In this document: positions 1 to 62,759 of the stretch, one piece after another
Position numbering within the stretch: position 1 is the stretch's first letter
Layout of the letters: the number at the start of each line of letters is the position of its first letter
NCBI RefSeq assembly: GCF_028009165.1
Contig: NW_026611615.1
Location: 682,001 to 746,000, forward strand
Source of the DNA: Akanthomyces muscarius
Lineage: Eukaryota; Ascomycota; Sordariomycetes; Hypocreales; Cordycipitaceae
Length of the DNA: 64,000 bases
Direction: 5' to 3'
Position numbers and translations under genes: made by a program
The notes under the pieces: model-generated
The model's database searches: none
Told to the model about the DNA's origin: nothing
The model's input: only the letters and a program-made list of their open reading frames with translations

Positions 1-2276
1 TTATAATTTTAAAATTATATATTATAAAGGATCTAAAAATAGAAAGGTAGACACACTTAGTTAAAAAGAGGATTTAAAAATAGAATAGTAAGTAGATAAT
101 ACACCTTTACTATACTAAACTAAAAATAGGAACCTTATACTAGACACCTAAGAAATTAATATAACTTAGTAAGTATAACTAGATAATATCTAGCTATAAA
201 AAATTAAGTTAAGAATCTAAAAAGACTATCTAACTAACACTTAGAGATTAACCCTATTTCTTATATAGAAAGAAAATAACTATTTTTATAATAATTAACT
301 ATACGTCCTAACTATATTATAAAAATAGCTTATAGAAGAAATATATATACACCCCCTATATAGACATTAAGGTGTTATAAAGATAATTAGTTAACTATAA
401 AGATTATATAACTTCCCTAAGAGTAGGAAGATTATATAGGAAATAATTAAGAAATATAACGTTTATAATAAAGTAAAGTTAGTATAATATATACCTTATA
501 GCGAATTATAACTAATATTACTACCTAAAAGAGTATAATAGACTATTACTATAGACTTTATTATTAAACTATTTAAGTCTAAAGAACTAATAATAAAAGT
601 ACTCTATAATAGTATCCTAGTTATTATTAATAAACTTATAAAGTATATCTACTATATTCCCTATATAAAATCTAGTAATACTAAAGATTTAGTATATATA
701 TTCTTTAAAATAGTTATTACTTAATATAGACTACTAATAAAACTTATATTAGATTATAATAAATTATTTATATTAAACTTCTAGAAGTGCCTTATAGAAA
801 TAATAAAAATTAAATAAAACTTATCTATAATATTCTACCTATAATTAGATAGTTAGACTAAGATTCTAAATTAAATACTAAAATAATACCTATAAAGCTA
901 TATTAACTACTAGTAAGATAATTAGGTAAAATAGCTACTACTTATATAATAGGCTTATAATAGCTCTAAAATTAATAATATAAAAATATTACTATTTAAA
1001 GCGAATTATAGATTTAACCTTATTATTAAAATATATATAATATAGAATATAAATATACTAGTAGTTATAGTGTATATAGTAATAATTATAGATATATAAA
1101 AACACTTATAATAAGAATAGATATTTTTATAAAACTATATAAAGTACTATATAAATAAAAAGAGATTACTAGTACTAATCCTAAAAGAGGGATATAAAGT
1201 CTACCTTATATATAAAAATATTAAAATAAAGTAACCTAATAATAAACTTAACTAAAAGAAAATTAGACTATTCCTTATTAAATAAAAAATATTAAATACT
1301 AACTATAAACTATTATTACCTAATAGAATAAGAATCTATCTTATATTTTATATCTTACTATTTAAGAAAGCACTAAATAATATTATAGTTACTATAGATA
1401 TTATTATAGAAAATAATAATATATACGAAATTAAATAAATACTTAAGGTATAAAGGAACTATAAGAAACACGAATATCTTATTAAATAGAAAGGATACCT
1501 AAACTCTAAAAACACCTAAGAACCTATAAGGAACCTTATAAGTTACTTAGACCTACTATAAGGCTTTTACTAGTAGTTAGTAAGGGGCCTAGCTTAGAAA
1601 TCTCGCCTAAACTAAACTATAACTAGTTAGGCTTATTAGGGACACCTAACGCCTATAAATTATAAATAACCTACTATTTATAAGAGCTTAGGGTAGGGAG
1701 GATATTATCCTCCTTATCTAGCTCTTAAATACCCCGCTTAAATAGCTTCTAGCTCTTATTCTTTACTAGACGATAAGTTTTATAGATCTATATTAAATAA
1801 TTTATAGCTTAAGATAGTTAAACCTATAGTTTAACTAAATACTTCTTAGCCTTTTCCTTAATATTATCTAGTTTCTTCTATTATATAAGTAGATATAAAA
1901 CTATAAAAACAAATTAGTAAGGAAATATATAAAAGAAGGAAGAATAAAACTTATAAGAGGACACTACTAGTATACTATTATAAGAATAACTATAATAGAT
2001 ATACTTTTTATAATAAGTCTTACTATCTATTAGATAACACTTTAACTAATAGTTAAAATAATAAGTATATAGTATCTTAGCGTCTTAGCTATAAAGAGCG
2101 ATAAAAGACCTTAGGGCGTCTTACTTATTAGATTTTTAGGAATAAGGTTTTTCTATATAACCTAATATATTATTAGTATATAATAATAAAGGAGGGAAGT
2201 TTTACGTACCTACTAAATAAATAACTAGAATAGGATTAGTAGCTTTAAGGATAAAACTAATAGAGGAGGAGTATTA
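1..2276 (+). mobile_element. Decayed Ty3/gypsy chromovirus, integrase to 3' end
   Basis: Conceptual translation of the plus strand gives broken but recognisable integrase from about 360 to 1400. A TITIDF-type catalytic Asp region lies near 540-560, and an ILVIINKLIKY-type segment and an AYNSS-type segment follow. The integrase tail carries the RIYLIFYILL-type stretch near 1330. A chromodomain follows at about 1416-1560 (YEIK, ILKV, EYLIK, KGY, ENT-EP order, with Trp codons turned into TAG). A purine run at 2262-2271 lies directly before the LTR at 2277 and fits a polypurine tract, so this element reads left to right. Its 5' part lies outside the window. Stops occur throughout, so it is inactive. 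Confidence 0.82.
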
Positions 2277-2678
2277 TATTATAAACGATAGGAAGTAATA
2301 TAAGGCGACTAGGGAAGCGGCCTAAGAGGACGACCTTATAGCGCCTATAGACTCCCTAATCGGGCCTTATAGTTACGTGACTTTACTAGATTACTAGAGC
2401 GAGTAAGCTAGTAAGCTATAAAGGGATTATAGGAGTAAGTAAGCTAGTAATCTAAGGGAAAGTAATAGAGAGGTAAACTATTATATAAAGGAAAGACTAT
2501 AGCTAGTCTAGATAGTTTAGATCTCTATTAATTAATCTAAGTAATAGTTTTACTATTAAAAGTTCTACTCTTAATGACTATTTATAATACTACTTAATAT
2601 ACTATCTTATAGCTTTCAGCCTAACTTACTCTCTAAGAAATAGACCTACTATAACTTAGTAAATAAGCTATTATTACA
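2277..2678 (+). repeat. LTR copy A (402 bp)
   Basis: This is the first of three near-equal copies (2277-2678, 6040-6441, 14590-14990). Each begins TATTATAAA and ends TTATTACA or its RIP-altered form. A purine tract precedes copy A, and the 80 bp upstream of it also match the DNA upstream of copy C, so A and C look like 3' LTRs attached to internal sequence. The terminal TG..CA expected of LTRs would read TA..CA or TA..TA after RIP, as seen here. Confidence 0.78.
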
Positions 2679-5600
2679 CTTAAGTTACTTAAAAGTATCA
2701 TCTTCTTACCTTTTTTATATAAATAGGACACCCTTATAAGTAAGATATATTAAGGGTTTAGTAAGTAAAAAGAAATTAAAAATAAAGTCCTTATAAAAGT
2801 TTATAAAGTTAAAGAAGCTATATACTCTATATACTTTAATAAAGGCCTCTTACTACTATATAGCTTTAATCTTCTCTAAGTCTAGTTTAAATAATTTCTC
2901 TACCTTTATTATAAACTCTAAGTACTTAACTTTTATAACTAAAAGTTTATACTTATTAATATCTAAAAATAGTCTAGCTTTTACTAGTTTATCTAATACT
3001 ATCTTAATCTTTTCCTTATATTTTTTAAATATACTTAAGCTATAAATAATTATATTATTTAGGTATATAGATATAAAGTTATTAAGTATCTTACTTAAAA
3101 CCTAGTTAATATAATATTAGAAACTAATAAAAGTACTTATAAGTCTAAATAAATATATAAGTTACTTAAAAAGGCTAAAATAGATATAAAACACTATATA
3201 CTTTTTAGATCTAAGAGCTATATATAGCTAATAAAAAGCTATTTAGATATCTAATTTAGTAAACTATTTTACTATTAAGAGTAAATATAAGGTCTCTTTA
3301 ATAAGTAAAAGAGGATATTAGTCTTCCTTTATAATTATATTAAAGGCCTTATAGTCTATATAAAATCTCTATTTACTATTAGGTTTTTTAATAAGTAAAA
3401 TAAGTATTATAGTTAATAAAGAACTTATATAAATCTAGCCCTTATTAAATAAAGATATAAGTTATTAATATAACTCTAATAATTATTTATATAATATCTA
3501 GTATAAACACCTATATAAGAGTTATTTAGGTATCTTATTAGCTTTTCTTTTAATATTAATTATATAATTAAAGCTTAGTTAATTTAGTAAAAAGCTTAAT
3601 ATAGTATTTTCTAAAAATAGATTAGTATATTCTTTATATTAAGTTAGAAGCTATTTCCTAAAAAATAAGGACTTTTATAATAAGGAGTTAATTTTAAAGA
3701 TACTTATTATAAATACTAAAACTTCTTAACTAGTTTTTATATATTTATATTTTAATACCTTATAAAGCTAGTATTTATTAAAAAAGGAATATCTTTATAC
3801 CTTTAACCTTTTATCTAGTATATATATTTATTAGTCTAGGGTTAATTAAGGGTATATATAGCTTATACTTATATTTAGGACTAAGTTATAATACTTTAAT
3901 TATAAAAGGCTTAAAATAATAAAGTAAGTTAGTAAAAAGATAATATAGAATAGTACTAAAAAAGACTAACTATTAATATTAATACTTACCTATACTATAT
4001 AAGAGATTATAAACTTAAAGCTTTTCTTTATTATTAGTTAAATATTTTATTTAATAAGTAAAGGTATAAGTTAAAAGCCTAATTACTTAACTATACCCTT
4101 TTAGATAGCTCTATAATAGTTATAGCTTAAGTCTATAAGAATATTAAATAAAGTAAAAGTCTCTAATATAGCTAGTATTAAGAAGAGTTAAGTATTTATT
4201 CTTTTTTCTACCTACTTTTAAGCTATTTTATTTTATAACTTAGTATTTAGTATATTATTTAAGACTAACTATTTTAATTATCTTAAAAAAAGACTTTTCT
4301 TTAAGATTTATTATTTTCTAAACTTATAGTAAATTTATTAGATTCTAAACTAGTATTTATTTAATTAATACCTATTAAGGGGAGGGCCTATATAAACTTA
4401 TATTCTTTAATATAGTATCTATTTTACTTATATTAAAAATAAGTACTAAATTCTTATTATACCCTTATAACTTCTTTTAAAACCTATAAAGTTTACTTTT
4501 ACCCTAAATTCCCTTAGATATTTTAGATAGTAACTAAAAGTAGTATTAAGAGTATATTAATTCCTATTATAATAAAGTCCCCTTTATAATTAATATAATA
4601 TTAACTTCTTTTATTTAAAGGTAGTTTTAATATTACTTTAATCTAGTAGGATTTTAGGTTAACTATAAAGGATTATAACTATTATATAGTAATATTATAA
4701 TAGCTTTTAAAAACCCCCTAGCTAATAATAAGATATCTTATAGTATCTAAAAGTATAAAATAAAGTTTATCTAGTTTAATCTTATTTATCTATAATAGAC
4801 CTCCTATTAGGGCTAGCTATTACTTAAAATAGATATAGAACTTAAAGAAAGACTTTTATTCCCCTTATTATAGTTAACTAATTCTATTTAAAGTAAGTTC
4901 CTATTAGTATAAGTTATTAAACACTCTACTTAAATAGTAAAAGAAATTATATAAATTAGTATTACTATATTAGCCGCCCTCTTTAAAATATATAATAACT
5001 TTTTATTAAGCTACTAAGTTAAGGTTATTTTAAATATATATAAATTAGGACTTTAAAGGGCTAATAAAGTCTATATTAATTTCTAACTTATACTTAATTA
5101 TTTTTTTCTAACCTTAAAATAAATCTAATTTACTATTATACTTCTCTTTAGGTAAGAGAGGTTTCCTTTTAGATATATAGGTGTTATTTCCTAGTTAGAT
5201 TAGGGGGGCTTAAGTAGTATAATAAGGTAGATTCCTTATACCTTATAAGGCTTAGAGTTATTCTTATATTACTTTTATTTAGGCTTATATAAGTGTGTTT
5301 TACTTTTATAACACTTTATTTTATTCTTAAAGAGAATAGTATTTATTTAAAGGCTCCTTATAAGTTAGGTAGTCTTTTATTTTATATTCTTTTAATAAAA
5401 AGAGTTAATTATTATAGACTAGCCTTAGGGCGTCTATAAATAGGCGTTATAATTATTATTAACTCTCTTAAAGAAAAGAAGGAGAAAAAATAGGAAGATA
5501 GTAAGCCCTTCTTATTTTATAGTAGTTTAGGTTTATATAGAGTTAGTATAGAGTTTAGCTAGGGTCTTAGTAAAGTTAACCCTAAGCTCAGCTAGCTAAT

Positions 5601-5700
5601 ACTTAACCTATACTATCTTAGTTATAATAGTGGGCTAAAGCCTAGTACCTTTATAACTAGTAGCTAAGCACTAAGTTGTTAGAATATTAATCTAAGATAT
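2679..5700 (-). mobile_element. Decayed Ty3/gypsy element, RT and RNase H, inverted
   Basis: The minus strand encodes a broken reverse transcriptase. From about 3430 to 3000 the order LIKKPN, F-IDYKAFN, YPLLLIKET, FTKLDI and IYLNNIIIYS can be read; the last corresponds to the YLDDILIYS catalytic block with its Asp codons altered. The RT/RNase H connection follows at about 2990-2700 (KYLEFII, LEKIKAI, NFINFYKDF). The integrase expected downstream is missing because LTR copy A begins immediately. Protease and gag should lie at 3450-5600 but could not be resolved. All frames are full of stops. This element is inverted relative to the one at 1-2276. Confidence 0.78.
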
Positions 5701-6039
5701 ACTTAGGCAGCTAGCTAAAGCTTATAATAATATCTAGTAGGCGACTATAAAGCACTTTAGGCCACTTTATATAGTATAACTAGGCAGTTATTTTATTATC
5801 TTATTAGTATACGTATACCTATATATTATATTAGTTCTTTTATACTTTATATTATAGTTACTAATCCTTTATAGCTTCTAATTATAGCAAATTAGCTATA
5901 TATCGATTTTCTATAAGTAGATATTAATTATAGTATATTATAGTAATAGTATATTCTATAGTGTTAAAGGCCTCTAGTATAGCTAGATATAATAAACGCC
6001 TATACTATTAGACTATAAGGTAAAAGATTAGGGCATTAA

Positions 6040-6441
6040 TATTATAAATAATAGAAAGTAATATAAGGTGACTAAGAAAGCGGCCTAAGAGGACGACCTT
6101 ATAGCGCCTATAAGCCCCCCCTAATTAGGCCTTATAGTTATATAACCTTACTAGATTATTAGAGTGAGTAAGCTAGTAAGCTATAAAGGGATTATAAGAG
6201 TAAGTAAGCTAGTAATTTAAGGAAATACTAAAAAGATAAACTATTATATAAAGGAAGGACTATAACTAGTTTAGATTATTTAGATCTCTATTAATTAATT
6301 TAAGTAATAGTTTTACTATTAAGAGTTCTACTCTTAATAAACGCCTATAATATTACTTAATATATTACCTTATAGCTTTAAGCCTAACTTACTCTCTAAG
6401 AAATAGACCTACTATAACTTAGTAAATAAGCTATTATTATA
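6040..6441 (+). repeat. LTR copy B (402 bp)
   Basis: It is colinear with copy A along its whole length, including the shared block of about 30 bp around 6090 (AAGCGGCCTAAGAGGACGAC) and the TTAGATCTCTATTAATTAAT segment near 6290. The DNA before it differs from that before A and C and has no purine tract. It may therefore be a solo LTR or a 5' LTR. More CpA sites are lost at its right end than in A and C. Confidence 0.75.
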
Positions 6442-6720
6442 ATTAAAAGTAATTCTAATAATTAATATAGGCGTAATAGTAGTATATAGCGTAGAGTAGT
6501 GCCGCTATAATAGTTTGTTATACTAGATTACTTATTAGAGGTAGGGTGGGGATTAGGCCTACTTTAGATACTATATTAAACACTTTCTATAAGATTAGTA
6601 GAAGGGTCTTTTTTACCTACACTAAAGAAGAATATAATTAGCGTATTAATTTAGTATTAGAAGTTTAAAGGCTAAGTGTAATAGAAAAGGGGTGAAAGTA
6701 CATCTATCTACGTATATATT

Positions 6721-7093
6721 ATAAACACTTATAGATAATAGGTAAAATGAGGAACTGCTGTGGAATAGCTTATTTTGGTTAAAAATGACTTGAATATGTA
6801 ACTGTGATTAGGTAATTAAAAATTTCTGTCTGGTGATTGGGCCGTACCGGGGCAAGTCGCCGAGAAAGTAAATACGTAGCGATTATAAATAGGGTCAGAA
6901 TGTATGTTTTGTCGATACGAGCAGTGCAGACTACATACCCGTAGGGATTCTAGAGTTCAAGATTGCCTTTTAAATATATAGCCGATTTTTGAGGCCATTA
7001 AGTAGTATTATTTATATGTCGTGTTATTCGATACAGCGAAAATCTATCAGAGTAGTTCGCTATTAGGCTAGGTATGCGAAAACCGTAGGCAGA
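6721..7093. other. Intergenic, block edge
   Basis: Composition changes from RIP-type to normal here. No gene, RNA or repeat was recognised. Confidence 0.6.
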
Positions 7094-8485: not shown

Positions 8486-9786
8486 ATGCATCTTATCGTT
8501 TTTCTTCTTCTTTTTCTGTTTTCTGCTGCCAGTTGCAGTAGCATGCTTCCCCGTGGAGCCTGCTCTGGGAACACTGCAACAACTCGTTCACAGTGGTGCA
8601 ATTTCGACATCAACACAAACTACTACGACGAAGTTCCCGATACTGGCGTCGTGAAGGAGTACACCTTTGACTTGGTCCAAATCACTGCTGCACCAGATGG
8701 CTTTCCGCGTACCGTGTATGCCTTTAACGGCGTGGTGCCCGGACCAACTATTGAGGCCGACTGGGGCGACACTGTCGTGGTTCGTATCAACAACAATCTT
8801 ACGCTGTCGAAGAATGGTACATCGGTTCATTTTCACGGCATTCGTCAAAACTACACCAACCAAATGGACGGTGTAACGGCCATTACACAATGCCCAATCT
8901 ATGCGGGTGGATCAACGACTTACACCTGGCGCGCCACACAGTACGGCACTTCGTGGTATCATTCGCACATTGGTCTACAAGCCTGGGATGGTGCCGCTGG
9001 TGCTATTAAAATCAATGGCCCGGCAACTGCAAACTACGATATTGACATAGGTCCTATTTTGTTATCGGACTGGACGCATCGGACCGCGGATGAGCTCTAC
9101 TCCTCGGCGTTGTTAGTTGGACCGCCGTCCTTAGACAACGGCCTCATTAACGGTACCAACATATGGAACAACTCTGGAACCCTCGTTGGCTATCGATTCA
9201 ACACTTCATTCACAGCAGACAAATCGCACCGACTAAGGTTAATTAATGGCGCCATTGATACACAGTTCAAATTCACCATTGACAATCATACGATGACTGT
9301 CATCGCAGCCGACTTTGTGCCCATTGTGCCGTATAATACCACGATCTTGAACATTGGCATGGGTAAGTCATCAAGGCTTACTAATGAACCATCAACTGAG
9401 GATTAATCATGTTACTCAAATAGGTGAAAGATACGACATCGTTGTCAGAGCAGATCAGCAATCTGTGGCCGATAATTTCTGGATGCGTGCTATCCCGCAG
9501 AAGTCTTGCGCTGGTGGCAGAAATCCCAGCGACGTCCGTGGCATAGTATACTATAGGGACGAGCCATCAGAACCAACTACCTCGGGGTATCCTTACGTCG
9601 ACGCGTGTGTTGATGAGCCAGTGGCAAGCTTGATCCCCCAGGTGGCGCTCAGCGCTGGCACACAAGACCAGTCCGATCAGGAAGCAGTAAGTCTTACACC
9701 CAGCAATAATGAAGGTGTCGTCCTCTGGGCTATGAATAATACATCATTCTATGTCGATTGGAAGAATCCTACCCTACTTCAGCTGT

Positions 9787-10271: not shown

Positions 10272-11060
10272 GCAAGCGTTTAACAAATACTGGCAGTAAG
10301 GGAGCAAAAATATCATTCCGGTAGACTTGTATTCGGGGCGTTTCTAACTGTTTTAGTAATTTTGAACTGCTTAGTAGGGAGGTATCTGTCACGGGTTGGA
10401 GACTGGAAGAGACTTAGTGTAGCGATAGCTTAAAACTGAGTCACAGTAGATCTGTTTCTTTAAAATGTGTGTGTGTGTAATAAGCGACTGTACTACGCTT
10501 TAGAGTAGGTTTCAGACGTGCTATCGAGCTATCGAAAGACTACTGTTATATAATTGCACCCACTGAGTAGATTGCACAGACCGCGACAAGTCGCGCTGAT
10601 ACTCTTAACAGAATATTTCCGGGTAATCCCTCCACATAATTGTCCTCCAGCCATAGTAGTTTCGCGCCCAATGGCATATGTCTGTCTTAGTCGATATCTG
10701 GCAGCGTGATCACGATAATGATGGCCGGATGCGCCTAGGCTTACGCCGTGGTTGGGTCGCGTTAACAACTGTTGTCACCTGGTCTTTTGATGGGACCAGC
10801 AGGGGCCCTGCGCCCCTGGGTTTTGTGGTCAGAATCTTCTCGCTCTTACGCTAACATTGCTACCATAGTCTACCCTCTAGCAACCGAGCGATAGGAGTAG
10901 TGCTAGGGCGGCGGTAGGGAAACCCTTAGGAAGGAGTTAGCGGCCGACGACCCATAAGTAACCCTAACCCTGGGAGAGAGGAAAAATCTCCGCAACTCGC
11001 TACTATTATTAGAAGGTCTGCATTCTAATACCTATAGCTCCTTAGTTCTAAGGGAGGCTA
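10272..11060. other. Intergenic after laccase, edge of RIP block 2
   Basis: No gene was recognised. There is a short perfect inverted repeat (CAGGGGC..GCCCCTG, 10800-10818) and two CCCTAA units near 10960, neither interpretable. From about 10860 composition drifts toward the AT-rich block. Confidence 0.5.
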
Positions 11061-11789
11061 TAAGGTGTGTGTGGACGAAAAGTTAGAACTAGCTTTATAA
11101 AAGTTAGAACTAGCTTTATAAAAGATAATAAACTGCTTTAAAGGACATCTTATAAAGGCGGTAATAAAGATGGTAATAAAAGACAGTGATTATTTTACGT
11201 GATAATAGCTAAAAGTAGTGGATATAGTAGGTAGTGTGTATAAGAAAGCTATAATACGTGGAATAGGAAGACAGTTAATAGTAGTGAAAGATCCTCTAAT
11301 AAAAAGTCTTTTATACTATACCTATTATAAATTATACTACTATTAAATTATACTAATATAGGTACTTAATTTATACTACTTTATAATTTATATAAAGTAA
11401 TAAAAATATCTTAAAGTTAATATATTTCTTTACCTTATAGAGGTAATAAAGGAAGTTAATAGTATAGCCCTATATATAAATTAGGATTAAAAAAAAGAGC
11501 TCTTTTTTAATATCTTTAATAGTTTTAATATAGTTTTAAGTTAATTATAAAGCTCGCTTATTAAAAGGAGATAGTAATAAGAAGGTAGTATAACTAGTTA
11601 AGCTAGCTTTTAATCCTAAATTTATTATTATACCTACTATAAAGATAGTATAACTTTAAGTTAGTATTATTCTAAGAAAGGGATAAGTATTAAAGAGTTA
11701 TAAGAGAGTTTATTTTAAATTTTATTTTTAAACTTAAAGTATTATAATAAGTACTTAGTTTTAACTAATAAAAGTTATTAAAATGAAAA

Positions 11790-11905
11790 TAAAAAAATAG
11801 ATACTAATTATAAACTATTACTATCTAATAAAATAGAAATCTATTTTATATTTTATATTTTATTACTTAAAAAAGTACTAAATAATATTATAATTACTAT
11901 AATAT
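11790..11905 (+). mobile_element. Gypsy integrase C-terminal fragment
   Basis: It aligns without gaps of note to about 1300-1410 in block 1: TAATTATAAACTATTACTAT, the AATAGAAATCTATTTTATAT stretch and AGTACTAAATAATATTATA all have counterparts. Similarity stops at about 11905, before the position of the chromodomain, so the element is cut or interrupted here. Same orientation as the element at 1-2276. Confidence 0.7.
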
Positions 11906-14589
11906 AGTTAATAAGTAATTAGGATAGATAATTAAGTATTATATTTCTACTAACCTTTTAACCTTTAATTATAAATAATTTAACTATAATATTAAAAAAT
12001 ATCTAAAACTAATTAAAATCCTCTTCTATACTAGTTTTTATATTTATAATATAAGTATTATAATACTAAATAATATATTTAATATATATATATTATAATA
12101 CCCTTATATTATAAATATAAAAGTTTAATACCTTTTAGTAAATAATAGAATTTTAACCTTTTTCTTTTAATATAATATATATTTTAAAATACTATAATTA
12201 ATTAAATATAAAGTCTTATATTTATAGATAGAAATTACCTTTTTAAGTATTCTCTTTTAACCTATAATAATAACTTATTATTAAGGCTTTTACTATAATA
12301 TATAAAATATAAAATTAACTTATATAAAGTAACTTAATCTAAATTAACTTAATTCTTAAAGATTATAATTAATTACTTAAAAGTACTTTTTACTATACTA
12401 ATATTTAATATACTACCCTTATAAAAGTAATATCTTAATATTAAAGTATATAGAATATTTTTAAAAGTTAGTATATAACTTTACTTAGTATTTATATTTT
12501 TAGAATTATAGTATATATATTATATCTAGTCTAACTATATATACTATATTACTAATTATATATTCTAACTTTTACTTTATAATAACTATAAGTTTATACT
12601 TTATTTTTTATTTAACTATTTATATCTATTTACTTTATTAAATCTCTTATATTTTATATAAAATAAAATCTTTTAGTTTATAATTTTATTTTTTTAATTT
12701 ATTAATATTTACTAATTAGTTTATTTATAAATTTAAAGTTTTATATTTAAATATATAAAAATATAATCTTATATATAGTAATTATTATACTTTTTTTTAA
12801 AACTATTAAATATATTAAAACTTTTAGTTAAAAAGCTATTTAAATAATTAATAATTTATTTTTTTAAAATTAAAAACTATAAAACTACTTTATTTATTAT
12901 ATTTAATATCTAAAGACTTAAAATATAACTAATTTTAAATATAAGTTTAAAAGAGTTAATATTATAAATTTAAATTTTAAAGTAAAAATAATCTTTTTAA
13001 AATTAAAAGAGATAATTTTAGTATTTTAAAAACTATTTTAAATATCTTTTTTATAATAAACTTATTAAAAGTATTAAAAAATATAAAAAAGAAATCTTTT
13101 TTAATAATATATATAATATTAGTTTTTATAAAATCTTTAATTTATTATTTATAAGCTTTTTTAAATAAACTAAAATAGTTAATATTTAAAAGTTAAAATA
13201 TATAAGAAAAATATATAAATATATAAAAAGTAATAATATTCTTTTTTTAATAAAAAAGTTTAAATATAATTAAATAATAACTTTTATAACTATTTAAGAT
13301 TAAAAAGTAATAATTACCCTTTTTTTAATCTTTTATATATTTATTAAAATACTTAATTTAATTTATACTAATTTTATTTATTATTTAACTATTTACGTTT
13401 ATATTAATATAGTAATTTAAAAGTAAGTATTTATTTTTATACTAAAATATAAAGTATTTTTAGCTTTTTATTATAATATATAATAATATTATTAAGTTTT
13501 AAAAATTTACTATTTAAATTATAATAACTTATTTTTTATTATTAAACTATATTATTTTTACTTTTTTAATCTAATTAGAGTTTATAATAACTCTTTTTAT
13601 TATAATAAAGCTTATTAAAAACCTAGTTTTATTAAAATTATAAATATTAGACTTTATAATATTATATTTTATAATTATATTTTTTAAAAGTATAAACTAA
13701 TTATAAATAATAGTTAGATTTTTATATTTAGTCTTTTAGTAATTATATCTTTATTAAAAATATATAATAAACTCTAATTATAATTATATAAGTTTTTTTA
13801 TTTAATATACTTTAATATATTTATTATTATATTTAGCTAATAGTTAGTTTATTATATCTTTTATATTTATATATTAAAAATAAAAGCTTTATAAATCTAA
13901 TTAGAGAATATATTTTATTATAACTCTTTTTTTTTTAAATTAGTAAGCTTTTTTAAATTAGTAATATAATTATATTATAAGTTTTAGGTATTATATTAAT
14001 ATTAAATAGTTATTATAAAGATATTATAGATTTTTATTATTTTATAGATATTTAATTTAGGTGACTTTTTAATAATAAGTAAGGTAAGAATTATATTACT
14101 TTTTATAAAAGTGTTTTTTATAAGTTATTATTAAGTAATTATAATATAAAGATAGAATTTAGTGTTTTATAATAAAGGTATACTACTTACTTATCTATAC
14201 CACTTATTTATTAACTATATTATAATTAGACTATTTTAGTATTATATTTATATAAGAGGAAGTTTAAACTAAAACCTATAATATTAAAGTCCCTATTATT
14301 AAGAGTATATTATATTATAAGAAGTTATTATAACTAGTTATACTATAACTAAAGGATAAGTACTTTTAGGACTACCTATATATCTTAGTTAGTATATTTT
14401 ATATTACTATTTATTTAAAAATAGTAGGTAGTAAATAAGAGTTATAATATATCTAATAGATAGTATAATATTTTTTAAAACTAACTAATTTAATCTAGTT
14501 TATAGTTATTAATAAGTTATACTTACTAAATAAATAGTTAAAATAAAATTAATAGTTTTAAAAATAAAACTAATAAAGAAAAGGTATTA

Positions 14590-14990
14590 TATTATAAATA
14601 ATAAGAAGTAATATAAAGTAATTAAAAAAGTAACTTAAAAGAATAGTCTTATAATACTTATAAGCTCTCTAATTAAGCTTTATAGTTATATAATCTTATT
14701 AAATTACTAAAATAAATAAACTAGTAAGTTATAAAAAGATTATAAGAATAAGTAAGTTAGTAATCTAAAAGAAGTAATAAAAAGGTAAACTATTATATAA
14801 AAGAAGAATTATTACTAGTTTAAATAGTTTAGATCTCTATTAATCAATTTAAATAATAGTTTTACTATTAAGAGTTCTACTTTTAATAAACGCCTATAAT
14901 ACTACTTTATATATTACCTTATAACTTTAAGCCTAACTTACTCTCTAAAAAATAGACCTACTATAACTTAGTAAATAAGCTATTATTACA
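14590..14990 (+). repeat. LTR copy C (401 bp)
   Basis: Third LTR copy, more heavily mutated than A. The 70 bp before it (from about 14518) also match the DNA before copy A and include a purine-rich tract, so it is the 3' end of an internal region of the same family. The element boundary at 14990 nearly coincides with the return to normal composition. Confidence 0.77.
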
Positions 14991-15000
14991 CTTATACCCT

Positions 15001-17883: not shown

Positions 17884-19292
17884 CTAATATGTTGCACTGC
17901 GCTTCTCCCGGTCTTCTCTCTCCAGTACCTTGGTGGCTCTTCTCACCTGCGCAAGGAGCGCACAGTAGCTGCCCAATATTTCTCCCAGCACTCCAGTGTC
18001 TAAATCAGCATAAAGCTTCAGCCTACACTCACGCAGCATGCCACCAGAGCCATCAGAGGAGGAGACTACACCAGGAATTCGCCTACTAAGCCAGCCGTCC
18101 ACGGACGCCAATATCCGCTCGTAGTCGTCGACGAGGCACAGCCTATCATCCAATTTCGTCATTTCTGCGTCCCGGAACCGCCGCGAGACCCACAGAAGAT
18201 TGCCCTCGGACGACTTCCAGCGCCATATGGGCATGGCGCCCCAGAACTGCGTGCGGAAGCGCTTCGAGACGGGAGATCTGTTGACGACAGGCGGCGGGGA
18301 TGAGGACGATGAGGACGACGAGTAGGACGGAGGGGCGTTTGAGGGGAGGTAGAAGTGGACGGAGTAGTCGTCACCAGGGAATAATTGGATGCGACAGGCT
18401 TCGGTGAATTCGAAGGGCTGCGAATCGTCGTTGTTGGCCGCGGTGTGTGGTGGCGGTGGCTGCTTCCTGTCTGATGCTGTTGGCAAACGGGCTGCTGCTG
18501 CAGCTCGCATGCTGACTATGATGTGTGGGTTGGAATTGTTGTACGAGCCGAGGTCGTCAACGCTATTGAGGTAAATTTGACAAAAGACCTCTCCTTCTCC
18601 TTCCTCTAACTCTCGCGCAGTCGGCGGATTATCAGCACCAGTCATCTCCATGCACCTGACTGTACCGCAGAGCCAATCATCAGATACGAGCTTTATTCGC
18701 GCCCTGGCTTTCAAAGTTGCGAAGCGCTGACTGCACGTCTTCATTTCCTTTTCCGTAATCTCCGGTCGTGGCCCCAGGGGAGACCGCGCCACGCGCATGC
18801 CGCCTGGCAGTCGCGCCAAGTCGGGTCGCCAGTCGTCCTCGGCCGGCGCAAAGTTGGACTCGGAGACGTCGGCGGCAATCGTGAAACCAAAGTCGCTCAT
18901 GCCGCCGGTAGTGATGGCGAGGCGCAGGCCGCAACGCCGACAGGAATGGATTGCGAACTGCGGCTTAAAGAGTAATGGGAGGACAAGGAGCATAATTCCG
19001 AGCGTGAGGGGCGCAAAGATGATGGCCACGGCCGTGCCGGCTGCGTATCTAGTTTCGTTCAGTTAGCCGGCGATCGTGGATGTGAAGCTGGGTGAATGAA
19101 ATAAAAGACCAACCGCCATCCTGCAAGGCGCTCTTTGGCGATTATTGTAGTACTACCGTGTCGGCACGCGGGACAGGTGGCGAACTGGCCGCGCTTGTAT
19201 GTGAGGTTGAGCAGCTCCTGGCGCTGTTGCAGTAGGTCGTCGCGACCTGCTGCTTGTGTTGGTGAGCCTTGGGTGCCGCGCTGGGTGCCCAT
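17884..19292 (-). CDS. LITAF-like zinc-binding membrane protein, hypothetical
   Basis: Exons 19292-19114 and 19048-17884 are joined across a 65-nt intron (GTTGGT..ACTAG, branch GCTAAC), giving 447 aa. The N-terminus has CPAC (Cys40, Cys43), then a hydrophobic stretch at about 66-88, then HSCRRCG (Cys96, Cys99). This Cys pair, membrane insert, Cys pair order is that of LITAF/SIMPLE domains, which sit on endosomal or vacuolar membranes. The remaining 340 residues are not recognised. They include Pro-, Ser- and Asn-rich low-complexity stretches (PPPPHT, a run of eight Ser) and a C-terminal helical part. The intron falls within the zinc domain, and splicing is needed to join the two Cys pairs. 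The role is unknown; the long cytosolic tail is unusual for the family. Confidence 0.75.
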
Positions 19293-35308: not shown

Positions 35309-35920
35309 ATGGCTAGCGCTCCAGCGTTCACTGGCAGAGCAATCCGCGTCGTGCTCGCTGATGGAAAGCCTGACGTCGTTGCCTACTTCCAAAAAGCCTT
35401 TTCCTCAGACACGTACCCAAATATTGTCGGTACGGCAAACACACCTGACGAGCTCAAAGGCGCGCTTTCGTCCACGCGCTGCGATGCCGTCCTTTTAGAC
35501 ATGGAGACATTTGGAGAGGCGTCTGTGCTGCAGGCAATCAAGGACAGCCACGCGGCGCTGCCCGCCATCTACCTCTCGCACAACCCTGCCTCGGACACGC
35601 TGGAAAATATTGTTTTGCGCAAGACTGCGACTGGGGTCGTGAAAAAGGAGGAGAAAACGGAGGACTTGGTGTTTGCCATCGAGGCCATCCTGGAAGGCCC
35701 TGTCGAGAGCGACGAGGCATCCGCGGTCAACCCCAACCGACTGACGGTTCGTGAGAGGGACGTCTTGAAGTACCTGCTAGAAGCCATGACGACGAGCGAA
35801 ATTGCGTCGGAGCTGCATCGGAGCTTAAAAACAATCTCGGCGCTGAAGCAAAGCGGGTGCGAGAAGCTGGGTGTCCAAAGCATTTCTGGTCTCTTTAAGC
35901 TCAAAGATCGCATTATTTAA
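35309..35920 (+). CDS. Bacterial-type response regulator, REC + LuxR HTH (RcsB/NarL-like)
   Basis: Single exon, 203 aa. The start was chosen at 35309 (CCCAGCATGG context); the frame stays open 25 codons upstream. Residues 11-130 form a receiver domain: IRVVLADGKPDVV, then AVLLDME with the phospho-acceptor Asp64, Ser90 at the Thr/Ser position and Lys112 in VVKK. One Asp of the acidic pair is replaced by Gly19. Residues 145-200 form a LuxR-type helix-turn-helix (LTVRERDVLKYLLEAMTTSE, EIASELHRSLKTIS, EKLGVQSISGLFKL). The RSLKTIS and KLGV parts resemble enterobacterial RcsB especially. I recognise no eukaryotic response regulator with this output domain. Codon use and GC look like the neighbours', so any transfer is not fresh. 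No partner kinase lies in the window. The function is unknown; DNA binding is expected from the fold. Confidence 0.87.
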   Translation: MASAPAFTGRAIRVVLADGKPDVVAYFQKAFSSDTYPNIVGTANTPDELKGALSSTRCDAVLLDMETFGEASVLQAIKDSHAALPAIYLSHNPASDTLENIVLRKTATGVVKKEEKTEDLVFAIEAILEGPVESDEASAVNPNRLTVRERDVLKYLLEAMTTSEIASELHRSLKTISALKQSGCEKLGVQSISGLFKLKDRII

Positions 35921-36825: not shown

Positions 36826-38424
36826 ATGGCCCCTCCAGCCGAGACGTTTACCCGCGAGGAAGTGCGCGAGCACACCTCTGAGGACTCTCTCTGGTGCATC
36901 ATCGACAGCATCGTCTACGATCTGACCGACTTTGTCATGGCACATCCCGGCGGCGAGGCCGTTCTGCAGCAGGTCGCTGGCCAGGATGCCACCACGGCCT
37001 TTTACAACCTGCACCGTCAGGAAGTCCTCAAGAAGTACGGTGACCTTGCCATCGGCACAGTCAAGGGCGAGACGCCCCAGGTCGTCGTCCCGCAGCCCGG
37101 CGACCTATCCCAGATTCCCTACGCCGAGCCTCTCTGGTTGACGCCCGCCTTCAAGACGCCCTACTACAACGACTCGCACCGCGCCTTGCAGAAGGCCGCC
37201 CGCGTCTTTGTCGACGAGCACCTGATCCCCGAGGCGCAAGACTGCGAAGCCACAGGCCGATACATCTCCCAGGAAATGATTGACCGCATGGCCAAGGAGG
37301 GCATCCTGCACATGCGCCTAGGCCCGGGCAAGCACATGAACGGCGTCAGCCTCTTTGGCGGTGTCATGAAGGGCGAGCAGTTTGACTACTTCCACGACCT
37401 CATCATCGGCCAGGAGTTCTCGCGCACCATGCAGCGAGGCTTCCAGGACGGCAACATGGCCGGTATGACGATTGGTCTCACCTGCGTGCTGAACTTCGCG
37501 CACGACGAGGCCTGGAAAAAGCAAATCGCCGACGAGGTCTTCAGCGGCAAGAAGAAGCTCTGCCTCGCCATTACCGAGGCCTTCGCCGGCTCGGACGTCG
37601 CTGGCCTGCGCACTACGGCGGAAAAGACACCCGACGGCAAGCACTACATCGTCAACGGCACCAAGAAGTGGATTACCAACGGCTGCTGGAGCGACTACTT
37701 TGTCACCGGCGTGCGCACGGGCAAGCACCTCTCGGTCCTGCTAATTCCCCGCGGCGAGGGCGTCGAGACCAAGCCCATCAAGACGTCGTACTCACCGGCC
37801 GCCGGCACTGCATACGTCACCTTTGACAATGTCAAGGTTCCCGTCGAGAACCTACTCGGCGAGGAGAACAAGGGCATTCACGTCATTCTGTCCAACTTTA
37901 ACCACGAGCGCTGGATGATGTGCACAGCGACGGTCCGCTCTATCCGCACCATTGTCGAGGAGTGCCTCAAGTGGTCCAACCAGCGCCTCGTCTTTGGCCA
38001 GCGTCTCATTGACCAGGCCGTCATCCGCCATCGGTATGTATCTTCTCCCCTCATGATTTCAGAACAGCGATGCTAATGTTGAAATAGCATCGCCAAAATG
38101 ATTGCCCTCGTCGAGTCTCACCAGGCCTGGCTCGAGAGCATCACCTATCAAATGTGCCACATGCCCTATAAGCAGCAGGCTCAGCACCTCGCCGGCCCTA
38201 TCGGCCTGCTCAAGATGAGCTGCACCCGCGCCGCCCACGAAGTTGCCGACGAGTCTGTCCAGATCTGGGGTGGCCGCGGTCTGACCCAGACGGGCATGGG
38301 CAAGCACATTGAGATATTCAACCGCACCTACAAGTTTGACTCGATCCTTGGCGGCTCCGAGGAGATCCTCGGCGATCTCGGCGTGCGACAGGCCATGCGC
38401 AACTTTCCCAAGTCCATGCTGTAA
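36826..38424 (+). CDS. Cytochrome b5 / acyl-CoA dehydrogenase fusion
   Basis: Exons 36826-38033 and 38088-38424 flank a 54-nt intron with a TGCTAATG branch site, giving 514 aa. Residues 1-80 are a cytochrome b5 domain with heme ligands in AHPGG and FYNLHR. The rest is an acyl-CoA dehydrogenase: LAITEAFAGSDVAG is the first family signature, and KFDSILGGSEEILGDLGVRQ is the second, containing the Glu-rich active-site loop. This fusion is known in fungi and probably feeds electrons from acyl-CoA or a related thioester through heme. No mitochondrial presequence is seen, so it may act in peroxisomes or at the ER. The substrate is not determined. Confidence 0.92.
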
Positions 38425-60517: not shown

Positions 60518-62759
60518 TTACAATGGCAACAGTTTTGCATGATGAGCCGGAAAGAATCCGCTCTTGCCCTTGTACGTCCCATGCCACCATTCGTCCGAAG
60601 GAAACGTGACGTTGGTAATTTTGGCACCCTTTGTAAAGCTTAAAACTGGATTGAAAAAAAAGTTAGTCCCTTAACTCGTCCCTTCAAGCGGAAGCAGTCC
60701 ACTCACGGTCTTTTGATGTCGTCCAGTATACACCCTTTGTTATGACCGATCTCTCGGGAGTAACATGCGAGCCCACAACATGGCGCGCATACTCCTCATC
60801 AGCATCCATCCGCAGAGATTCTAGCGATTGCATCATGGACGCAATGGCGCTTTGGATCGCGTCCTTTCCGGGCCCTTCGAACATGTTGTCGGCCTTTTCC
60901 TGCTGCTTGCGTATGGCGTCTTCGATGCCCTGCGCCGCCGTGTACTTGGCCGCCAGCGCTGGATTCGGCGCAGGCGGCGCGTCGCCTTGTCGGTCGCTGT
61001 CAGACCGGCACCCTGGTGGTCCGTGACGATTGCGAGGGGGCCAAGCGCCGGGGAATCCGGCCCGGCCGAATCCACCCCGGCCGAATCCGCCACGTCCGTG
61101 ATGAGACCAGCCGCCTCTACCACCAACTCCATGTTCATGGTGGCGTTGGTGAGGGTGGTGGTTATGGAGACGCATGGAGGGCGGGCAATGCATCCCGTGA
61201 GGCAGGGCGGGCATCGATGGCATAGCTGGCATGGCGGGCACAGCTGGCCCAGCGGGCACAGCTGGCATAGAACGGCCATGCGGTAGAGGAGGTACAAAGG
61301 GCACCGGGGGCATGTGTCCGCCGTGCCGTCTCGCTTCCTTCTCTGCCCGTCGCACATCCCTTTGCGACCTCTTCATGTCTCTCCTCCACTGCTTGCGTTC
61401 ACGCTTTTCCTGCCGACGCTGCTTTTTGCGTGCGCTGCGAGTACCGCGCTGCGTTTTGCGCTGCTCGCGTTGGATCTGCTTCCACTGCTTCAATAGCATC
61501 TTGATCTGTGCCTTGAGCTCCCTCTTATCCGTGGTGGGGTTGGCGGTGTGAAACTTGGCGAGACTGAGCTCGTTTTTGAGCCAGACTACATCCGTGTTGG
61601 TGCGAAGGTGACTGGGCTTGGAGGTCCAATCCCGTAAAATGTTGAGATAAGCAGGCAATTGCTGCTCGCGCACCTCGTCGTAGTCGGGTAGTGAATCTAG
61701 CGAAGAGACGCTAGAGCTTGAAGATGTAGACGATGCTGATGAGACCGAGGAGGCAGATCGATCCCGAGCCGTGCCTTTACCTTTGCCTGTCATGTTGTCA
61801 CTGGCTTGAGCTCTCCCACGCGTGGGTTCAGCATCTGGCACGCTACGTGACGACGGTCCCGCTCCTGCATCCTGCAATATCCCCGGCGCGTCACCATCAT
61901 GACCCGCCGTTCGAATGCCATTGGCATCCATAATGAGAGAGCCAAGGCGGATACCCCTGCCATCCATGACGAATTTCTTGCCATACGCGATGCCGCCGGC
62001 GTCGATCCTGAAAGACGACGCATTCGGCCACCACCCACTACCAGGGGCCGGTTGCTCTTCCCCATCCCGCGCAGTCGCACCATAATCAACCTCGTCGTCC
62101 TCGCTTGCGGCAATACTAATGGTGATGCCTCGTGGCGTAAAGAAGCCATCGTTCCACTCATGAACGGTGGCCATCGCATTCGCCTGTCGCTGGGCCTCAT
62201 CCTGTAAAGCCTCAGGGCCGGCTGTGCGCATCATATGCCGCTGGAGCTCAGCCTGCGAGCGTCCACTGCTCACACTGTCGCCGGCTTCGCTTTCCGCCTC
62301 GGCGCGGAGTTTGCGCTCCAGGATAACATCGTTTCCGCGCGTGGTGTGATCTGGCAGTAAAAAGTTGATGAATGTGGCCCAGTCCTGCGCATTAATGTCA
62401 CGCTTCTCCCAGTCGCTCGGAAAGGGAAAATCATCGGGCAGTGACTGCGTCTCGAGATGCAGCGCATGCACGAGCGTCGACTGGGGAATCACACCTGGCG
62501 GCGGCGGGGGTCTTGTCTCAAAGTACAGGTCGGCGCCGGCTTGCGGAATGCCAGTGATGACGCTACGGGAGTTGGTTGTGCGGGGGGTATCTGGGGGAGT
62601 GTAGATAATTTCTTCGTTTGACGACATGCGGGATGTCACGTCGTCGGCTAGGGTGGGCGGCGCTGACGGGACAGCACCAGCACCAGAGTTGGAATATATG
62701 TCTGTCTCTGAGTATGGCGGCGGTGCATCGCCGCCGTGAAGAGGTGCAGCGCCAGACAT
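60518..62759 (-). CDS. Low-complexity protein with C-terminal SH3-like domain, unknown
   Basis: Exons 62759-60707 and 60645-60518 flank a 61-nt intron, giving 726 aa. The second exon completes a C-terminal SH3-like fold: LLSFTKGAKITNV, DEWWHGTYKGKSGFFPAHHA, with the WW, GFFPxxxA pattern of SH3 domains. The first 300 residues contain a PPPPYSETD-type start and a conserved central stretch (LPDDFPFPSDWEKRDINAQD). A basic coiled region (KKQRRQEKRERKQWRRDMK) follows, then Met-Pro repeats (PAMPAMPSMPALPHG), a His-rich part and an RGG-like Gly/Arg run (GRGGFGRGGFGRAG). Without the intron the frame ends shortly after the donor, losing the SH3 end. The function is unknown; the features suggest a scaffold or RNA-linked protein. 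Confidence 0.8.

Follow-up and report, generated by a model that had tools for sequence, protein, structure and literature searches.

The window analyzed here, a stretch of 64,000 nucleotides from the hypocrealean fungus Akanthomyces muscarius, carries an intronless gene for a small protein that joins a receiver domain (REC) to a helix-turn-helix (HTH) of the LuxR/GerE type. The reading we favor, at a probability of roughly 0.7, is that a complete RcsB-like gene passed long ago from Proteobacteria into the lineage of this fungus, a relative of insect-killing molds, and that its product would now be a fungal transcription factor with a non-canonical receiver input. To an earlier, sequence-only reading of this DNA, the analysis adds that several genera carry the gene, that the protein is RcsB-like rather than RcsB, and that its metal site carries a fungus-specific change.

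A receiver and a LuxR-type HTH in one short protein

The protein is encoded in one open frame and both of its domains are recovered by Pfam (Table 1), which bears out the initial description of an intronless, 203-residue receiver-HTH protein; the HTH strings quoted at the time, HRSLKTIS and EKLGV among them, are all present in the translation. GerE is matched over residues 144-195 (E 1.3e-9, 37.9 bits, above the cut-off of 23.5) and Response_reg over residues 14-124 (E 6.1e-6), for the window protein at 26.8 bits and thus below the cut-off of 30.2. In the fungal alignment A1, which holds 17 rows (the window protein and P0003-P0018; P0002, one residue off the window protein, was omitted), GerE is matched by all 17 and Response_reg by 16 at E <= 1e-3. 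The order of REC and GerE HTH within a single short protein is that of response regulators of the NarL/LuxR type. The start codon has A at -3 and G at +4, a good eukaryotic context, and the fungal relatives align from the same methionine; 17 of them are 203-206 residues long. Ahead of the receiver lies an N-terminal extension (residues 1-11, 35309-35341) in which M1, F7 and G9 are invariant across the 17 fungal rows. The 360 bases upstream of the gene contain no inverted repeats with arms of at least 7 within 40 bases.

Table 1. The REC-HTH gene, its parts and its neighbors in the window (window coordinates).
Feature	Position	Strand	Basis
Intronless gene, REC + LuxR/GerE-HTH protein, 203 aa (stop codon included)	35309..35920	+	translation, Pfam, relatives
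REC domain, residues 12-130	35342..35698	+	Pfam, alignments, predicted strands
Short linker, residues 131-143	35699..35737	+	alignments
LuxR/GerE-type HTH and C-terminal tail, residues 144-203	35738..35917	+	Pfam GerE, conservation, predicted helices
Upstream neighbor, zinc-type alcohol dehydrogenase family, 319 aa	33989..34948	+	ORF, domain match
Downstream neighbor, cytochrome b5 + acyl-CoA dehydrogenase	36826..38424	+	domain match; gene end read by eye

An AlphaFold2 model computed from a 50-row alignment is of moderate quality (pLDDT 64.0, pTM 0.49) and is therefore relied on here solely for secondary structure and fold family. The receiver is predicted to have strands at 13-17, 38-43, 60-64, 86-90 and 109-112 with helices between them, the fourth helix being short and of low confidence; the HTH part is predicted to have five helices (147-157, 162-169, 173-187, 192-196 and 199-202). 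RcsB ranks first for the fungal protein both in a sequence search of the PDB and in Foldseek, where the best 21 matches are all RcsB chains. The whole-length fit to these is low (TM about 0.5, rmsd above 10), perhaps reflecting a different placement of the domains or an imprecise model.

A receiver pocket that lacks its second acidic residue

D18, D64, S90 and K113 are invariant in all 17 fungal rows and align with D10, D56, T87 and K109 of RcsB. The position that follows the first of these, 19 (D11 in RcsB), is G in 13 fungal rows and A in the other 4; it is D in all 19 ungapped RcsB-like rows and in 34 of 35 other bacterial rows. In CheY-type receivers, the equivalent residue helps to bind the Mg2+ needed for phosphorylation. 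The complete phosphorylation pocket of two acidic residues, Asp, Ser/Thr and Lys is thus not present, the second acidic residue being missing, and the fungal protein is a NarL/LuxR-type member by architecture and descent that is atypical in its pocket. The alignment further shows a loop after D64 that is shorter than in the bacterial rows; a linker that is shorter than in the aligned bacterial relatives, with none of its 13 positions invariant across the 17 fungal rows; and, at residue 110, V, A or L in the fungi, where 53 of 55 bacterial rows have an aromatic residue or Ile. Because of the G or A at position 19, the shortened loop and linker and the change at 110, the fungal receiver is likely atypical.

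These features bear in two directions on the suggestion that the protein works without phosphorylation: the loss of the acidic residue throughout the fungal rows speaks for it, the retention of D64, S90 and K113 against it, since the latter would equally fit residual phosphorylation. An alternative of the same origin is accordingly that the receiver is still phosphorylated by a hybrid kinase and a Ypd1-type HPt relay, forming an output arm beside Ssk1 and Skn7. The invariance of D18, D64, S90 and K113 favors it, as does the model, in which D64 closes strand 3. The genome (36.2 Mb in 12 contigs) moreover holds 21 REC stretches, the window protein among them, and one HPt match, which together make a fungal His-Asp relay likely. 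We nevertheless consider this alternative unlikely, given that every fungal row lacks the second acidic residue, that residue 110 is V, A or L, and that D64 is followed by a shortened loop. A precedent for a phosphorylation-independent fungal protein is provided by RcsB, which is active without phosphorylation when joined by partner proteins; judged by its residues, the fungal regulator probably works without canonical phosphorylation. The sole HPt match (contig C1, 7197648-7197950, minus strand) contains two stop codons when read through, perhaps owing to an intron.

Conservation of the HTH

Among the fungal rows, mean pairwise identity is 90.3% in the HTH and 75.1% in the receiver, and 39 of the 60 positions of HTH and tail are invariant, as against 41 of 119 in the receiver. 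Ten bacterial relatives show the same contrast (67.9% and 49.7%); a better-kept HTH is thus usual for proteins of this kind and reflects ordinary constraint, not a special sign. In the recognition helix, the fungal protein has L179 where the 20 RcsB-like rows have Q (19 rows) or H (one row), a substitution that suggests an altered DNA target.

The missing pocket ligand and the sub-threshold Pfam score of the receiver could also be taken as marks of a transferred gene that is decaying and without function. This is scarcely plausible for a protein whose HTH hardly varies from genus to genus and whose 17 database relatives have all kept their length.

The gene is common to several genera of Cordycipitaceae

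A single-sequence search returns 18 matches at E <= 1e-3, of which 17 are full-length (E <= 2.1e-85, 72-100% identity); the 18th is a NarL-type protein at 29% identity (37 bits, E 7.6e-4). Eleven of the 17 close relatives carry an organism name, in every case that of a hypocrealean fungus, and the remaining 6 were taken as fungal from their level of identity. The holders are Akanthomyces lecanii, Beauveria namnaoensis, B. bassiana (two), B. thailandica, Cordyceps javanica, C. fumosorosea, C. militaris (two), Lecanicillium saksenae and Aphanocladium album. Of the five species looked up in the NCBI taxonomy, A. lecanii, B. bassiana, C. militaris and L. saksenae (now Corniculantispora saksenae) belong to the Cordycipitaceae, and Aphanocladium album is placed in Hypocreales incertae sedis. 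Close copies thus exist in related fungi: the gene is common to several genera of Cordycipitaceae and to Aphanocladium, and is no peculiarity of one genome. The source annotations of some copies read 'capsular synthesis regulator component B' or 'RcsB', which shows that the likeness to RcsB had already been noticed in annotation. No study of this gene appears in the literature listings consulted, whose incomplete coverage does not establish its absence from print.

Outside this set, similarity falls off steeply. A profile search gives 330 matches; among the 120 listed, the first after the 17 fungal ones scores 63 bits at 30% identity, and none beyond the fungal set exceeds 35% identity over at least half of the query, shorter local matches reaching 48%. 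No other eukaryotic relative is recognizable among the 18 single-sequence matches or the 120 listed profile matches, most of the latter being without an organism name.

The gene resides among ordinary fungal genes

In the A. muscarius genome the window protein is the sole match to itself, and also the only match to GerE (both at E <= 1e-3). Its flanks are occupied by ordinary fungal genes, as had been recognized from the start: a dehydrogenase and a cytochrome b5/acyl-CoA dehydrogenase on either side (Table 1), the frame of the latter broken by an intron-like stretch at about 38034-38087 (boundaries by eye), and, within about 11 kb, ATG2, SAE2/CtIP and a ubiquitin hydrolase. The gene has a GC3 of 0.67 and a codon preference of 0.08, compared with 0.007 to 0.237 in nine long open frames of the window and with -0.053 and -0.02 in its own wrong frames; its codon use is local to the window.

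Bacterial contamination or an assembly chimera might be considered for a gene that is intronless, whose non-fungal relatives are of bacterial type and some of whose copies bear bacterial names in their sources. The local codon use and the fungal genes on both sides argue against it, as does the lack, beyond the fungal set, of a listed match that comes close over half the query. Most strongly against it, close copies occur in the assemblies of several other fungal genera, some of them on megabase contigs (the longest include 5.46, 4.55, 3.50, 2.61 and 2.46 Mb). On the strength of these copies contamination is rejected, with a negligible probability left to it, and a chimera is very unlikely, in agreement with the initial view that simple contamination does not account for the locus.

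Elsewhere in the window, two blocks are AT-rich: 1-7000 (GC 0.23) and 11000-15000 (GC 0.14), with TpA/ApT of 1.65 and 1.45 and (CpA+TpG)/(ApC+GpT) of 0.14 and 0.09, respectively. They could be the residue of repeat-induced point mutation, and are separated by an island of normal GC with a multicopper oxidase frame (8486-9403). Two further open frames, 17887-18993 (minus strand, 369 aa) and 60687-62759 (minus strand, 691 aa), have no Pfam match at E <= 1e-5.

In trees without BglJ the fungal clade groups with RcsB-like Proteobacterial regulators

Trees were built from 10 fungal rows, hand-picked from 18 (the window protein and P0002-P0018); 20 bacterial RcsB-like rows, kept from 85 locus proteins by shared 4-mers; and 30 generic rows (within P0019-P0056), obtained by going down a list of 103 and keeping the first that were dissimilar to one another. 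With five other E. coli regulators included, the fungal and RcsB-like rows split from the 35 others at 100/98; before these five went in, the grouping stood at 100/95. As the bacterial genome rows had been selected via a recognition-helix pattern, taken from an alignment that contains the window protein, trees were also run by domain and with the helix dropped. The grouping is retained at 95/83 without residues 170-190 and at 100/99 on the HTH only; the receiver on its own recovers this split at 93/81 (not starred). The trees of the two domains point one way, as expected for the transfer of a whole gene.

One sequence disturbs the grouping. When E. coli BglJ is added, on a branch of 4.58 changes, the fungi adjoin it and fall outside the RcsB-like rows at 97/87; because this branch is long and the fungi were drawn next to it, the tree was built anew without BglJ. 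Except when BglJ is included, then, the phylogeny of REC-LuxR proteins that had been proposed as a check groups the fungal clade with the Proteobacterial RcsB-like regulators. Within this group, AU tests favor neither a fungal position as sister to all RcsB-like rows nor one nested inside them (p-AU 0.455 and 0.481; 0.448 in the 100/98 tree), and in the 100/95 tree the separation of the 20 bacterial RcsB-like rows from the fungi has a support of just 47/2.

Searches for a donor lineage found none, the best bacterial relatives being about 30% identical. Conserved fungal peptides gave 133 pattern matches in bacterial genome contigs, with no relative among them; a scan of these contigs with a mixed alignment gave 478 relatives from 523 stretches, of which the 80 kept include none above 32% identity; and tblastn against plasmids gave 149 records, the best place of each below 60% identity and the 40 listed at 26.8-31.1%. 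Among these 40 and the 80 kept, RcsB-like matches come from Burkholderiales, Pseudomonas and Enterobacterales at about 27-32%. The stem of the fungal clade is long, at 1.59 and 1.66 changes per column in two trees, and implies either that the donor is unsampled or that the gene changed fast after its arrival.

The long stem could also mark an old eukaryotic REC-LuxR family that descended vertically and was lost nearly everywhere else, and the trees allow a position of the fungi as sister to the sampled RcsB-like bacteria, or outside them when BglJ is present. Such a history, which would require very many independent losses, is highly improbable: the older eukaryotic clade that would have spoken against transfer is not seen among the matches searched above, the profile matches being mostly unnamed, even though the BglJ tree runs against the RcsB-like grouping. 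Ancient acquisition from bacteria, as first proposed, gains its support from the similarity cliff beyond the fungal set, from the whole-protein, HTH and helix-less trees, and from the copies in several genera.

Proposed origin and mode of action

Since the fungal copies form one clade, we infer that a complete Proteobacterial RcsB-like response-regulator gene was transferred once, long ago, to an ancestor of the Cordycipitaceae and their near kin, and that its product would since have settled there as a small transcription factor. Through its LuxR-type HTH the protein would bind DNA as a dimer, and the receiver may serve mainly for dimerization and to take in a regulatory signal that is not canonical, Mg2+-dependent phosphorylation. 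The site of action would be the nucleus, into which the protein, at about 22 kDa, could pass passively. Taken in full, this becomes a more tentative proposal: a captured bacterial output protein, uncoupled from the relay by the loss of a metal ligand, may now act in the nucleus as a transcription factor that controls a fungal regulon of its own, kept through the radiation of the Cordycipitaceae, a family of insect pathogens.

To our knowledge, genes taken by fungi from bacteria are mostly enzymes. For fungi to retain a regulator whose DNA-binding domain is bacterial would be unusual, because such a regulator needs targets in a foreign genome and has to work with a different transcription machinery; on the more tentative proposal above, a bacterial regulator would have been wired into eukaryotic gene control. 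As the gene is kept in several genera of a well-studied group, including workable species such as Cordyceps militaris, this wiring-in is directly testable.

Comparison with known response regulators

RcsB (NCBIfam NF008098) is the best family match in sequence and fold, and shares with the fungal protein the order of REC and LuxR/GerE HTH and the HTH type, RSxKTISxxK...KLG. The early description 'close to enterobacterial RcsB' holds for the type of HTH, less so for the whole protein, which is 28% identical to E. coli RcsB. It differs from RcsB in the G or A at the second acidic residue, in L179 for Q, in its shorter loop and linker, in its fungal host, and in having no adjacent RcsC or RcsD, the neighbors being a dehydrogenase and an acyl-CoA dehydrogenase. 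Identity or orthology with RcsB is excluded by a score of 48 bits against the NCBIfam equivalog cut-off of 235.

The RcsB-like regulators of Pseudomonas, Janthinobacterium, Variovorax, Collimonas and Pantoea share with the fungal protein both the RSxKTIS core and a C-terminal LF(K) motif, at 29-34% identity (eight aligned), but have an intact acidic pair and a longer linker; the AU test neither establishes nor rejects a specific tie between these regulators and the fungal clade (p-AU 0.455). Regulators of the NarL, UvrY, EvgA-FimZ and UhpA types have the same two-domain architecture, but lie across the 100/98 branch. The fungal response regulators Ssk1, Skn7 and Rim15 have output domains of other kinds; what they have in common with the window protein is a receiver domain and a fungal host that has a His-Asp relay, and the window protein is the only GerE match in this genome at E <= 1e-3.
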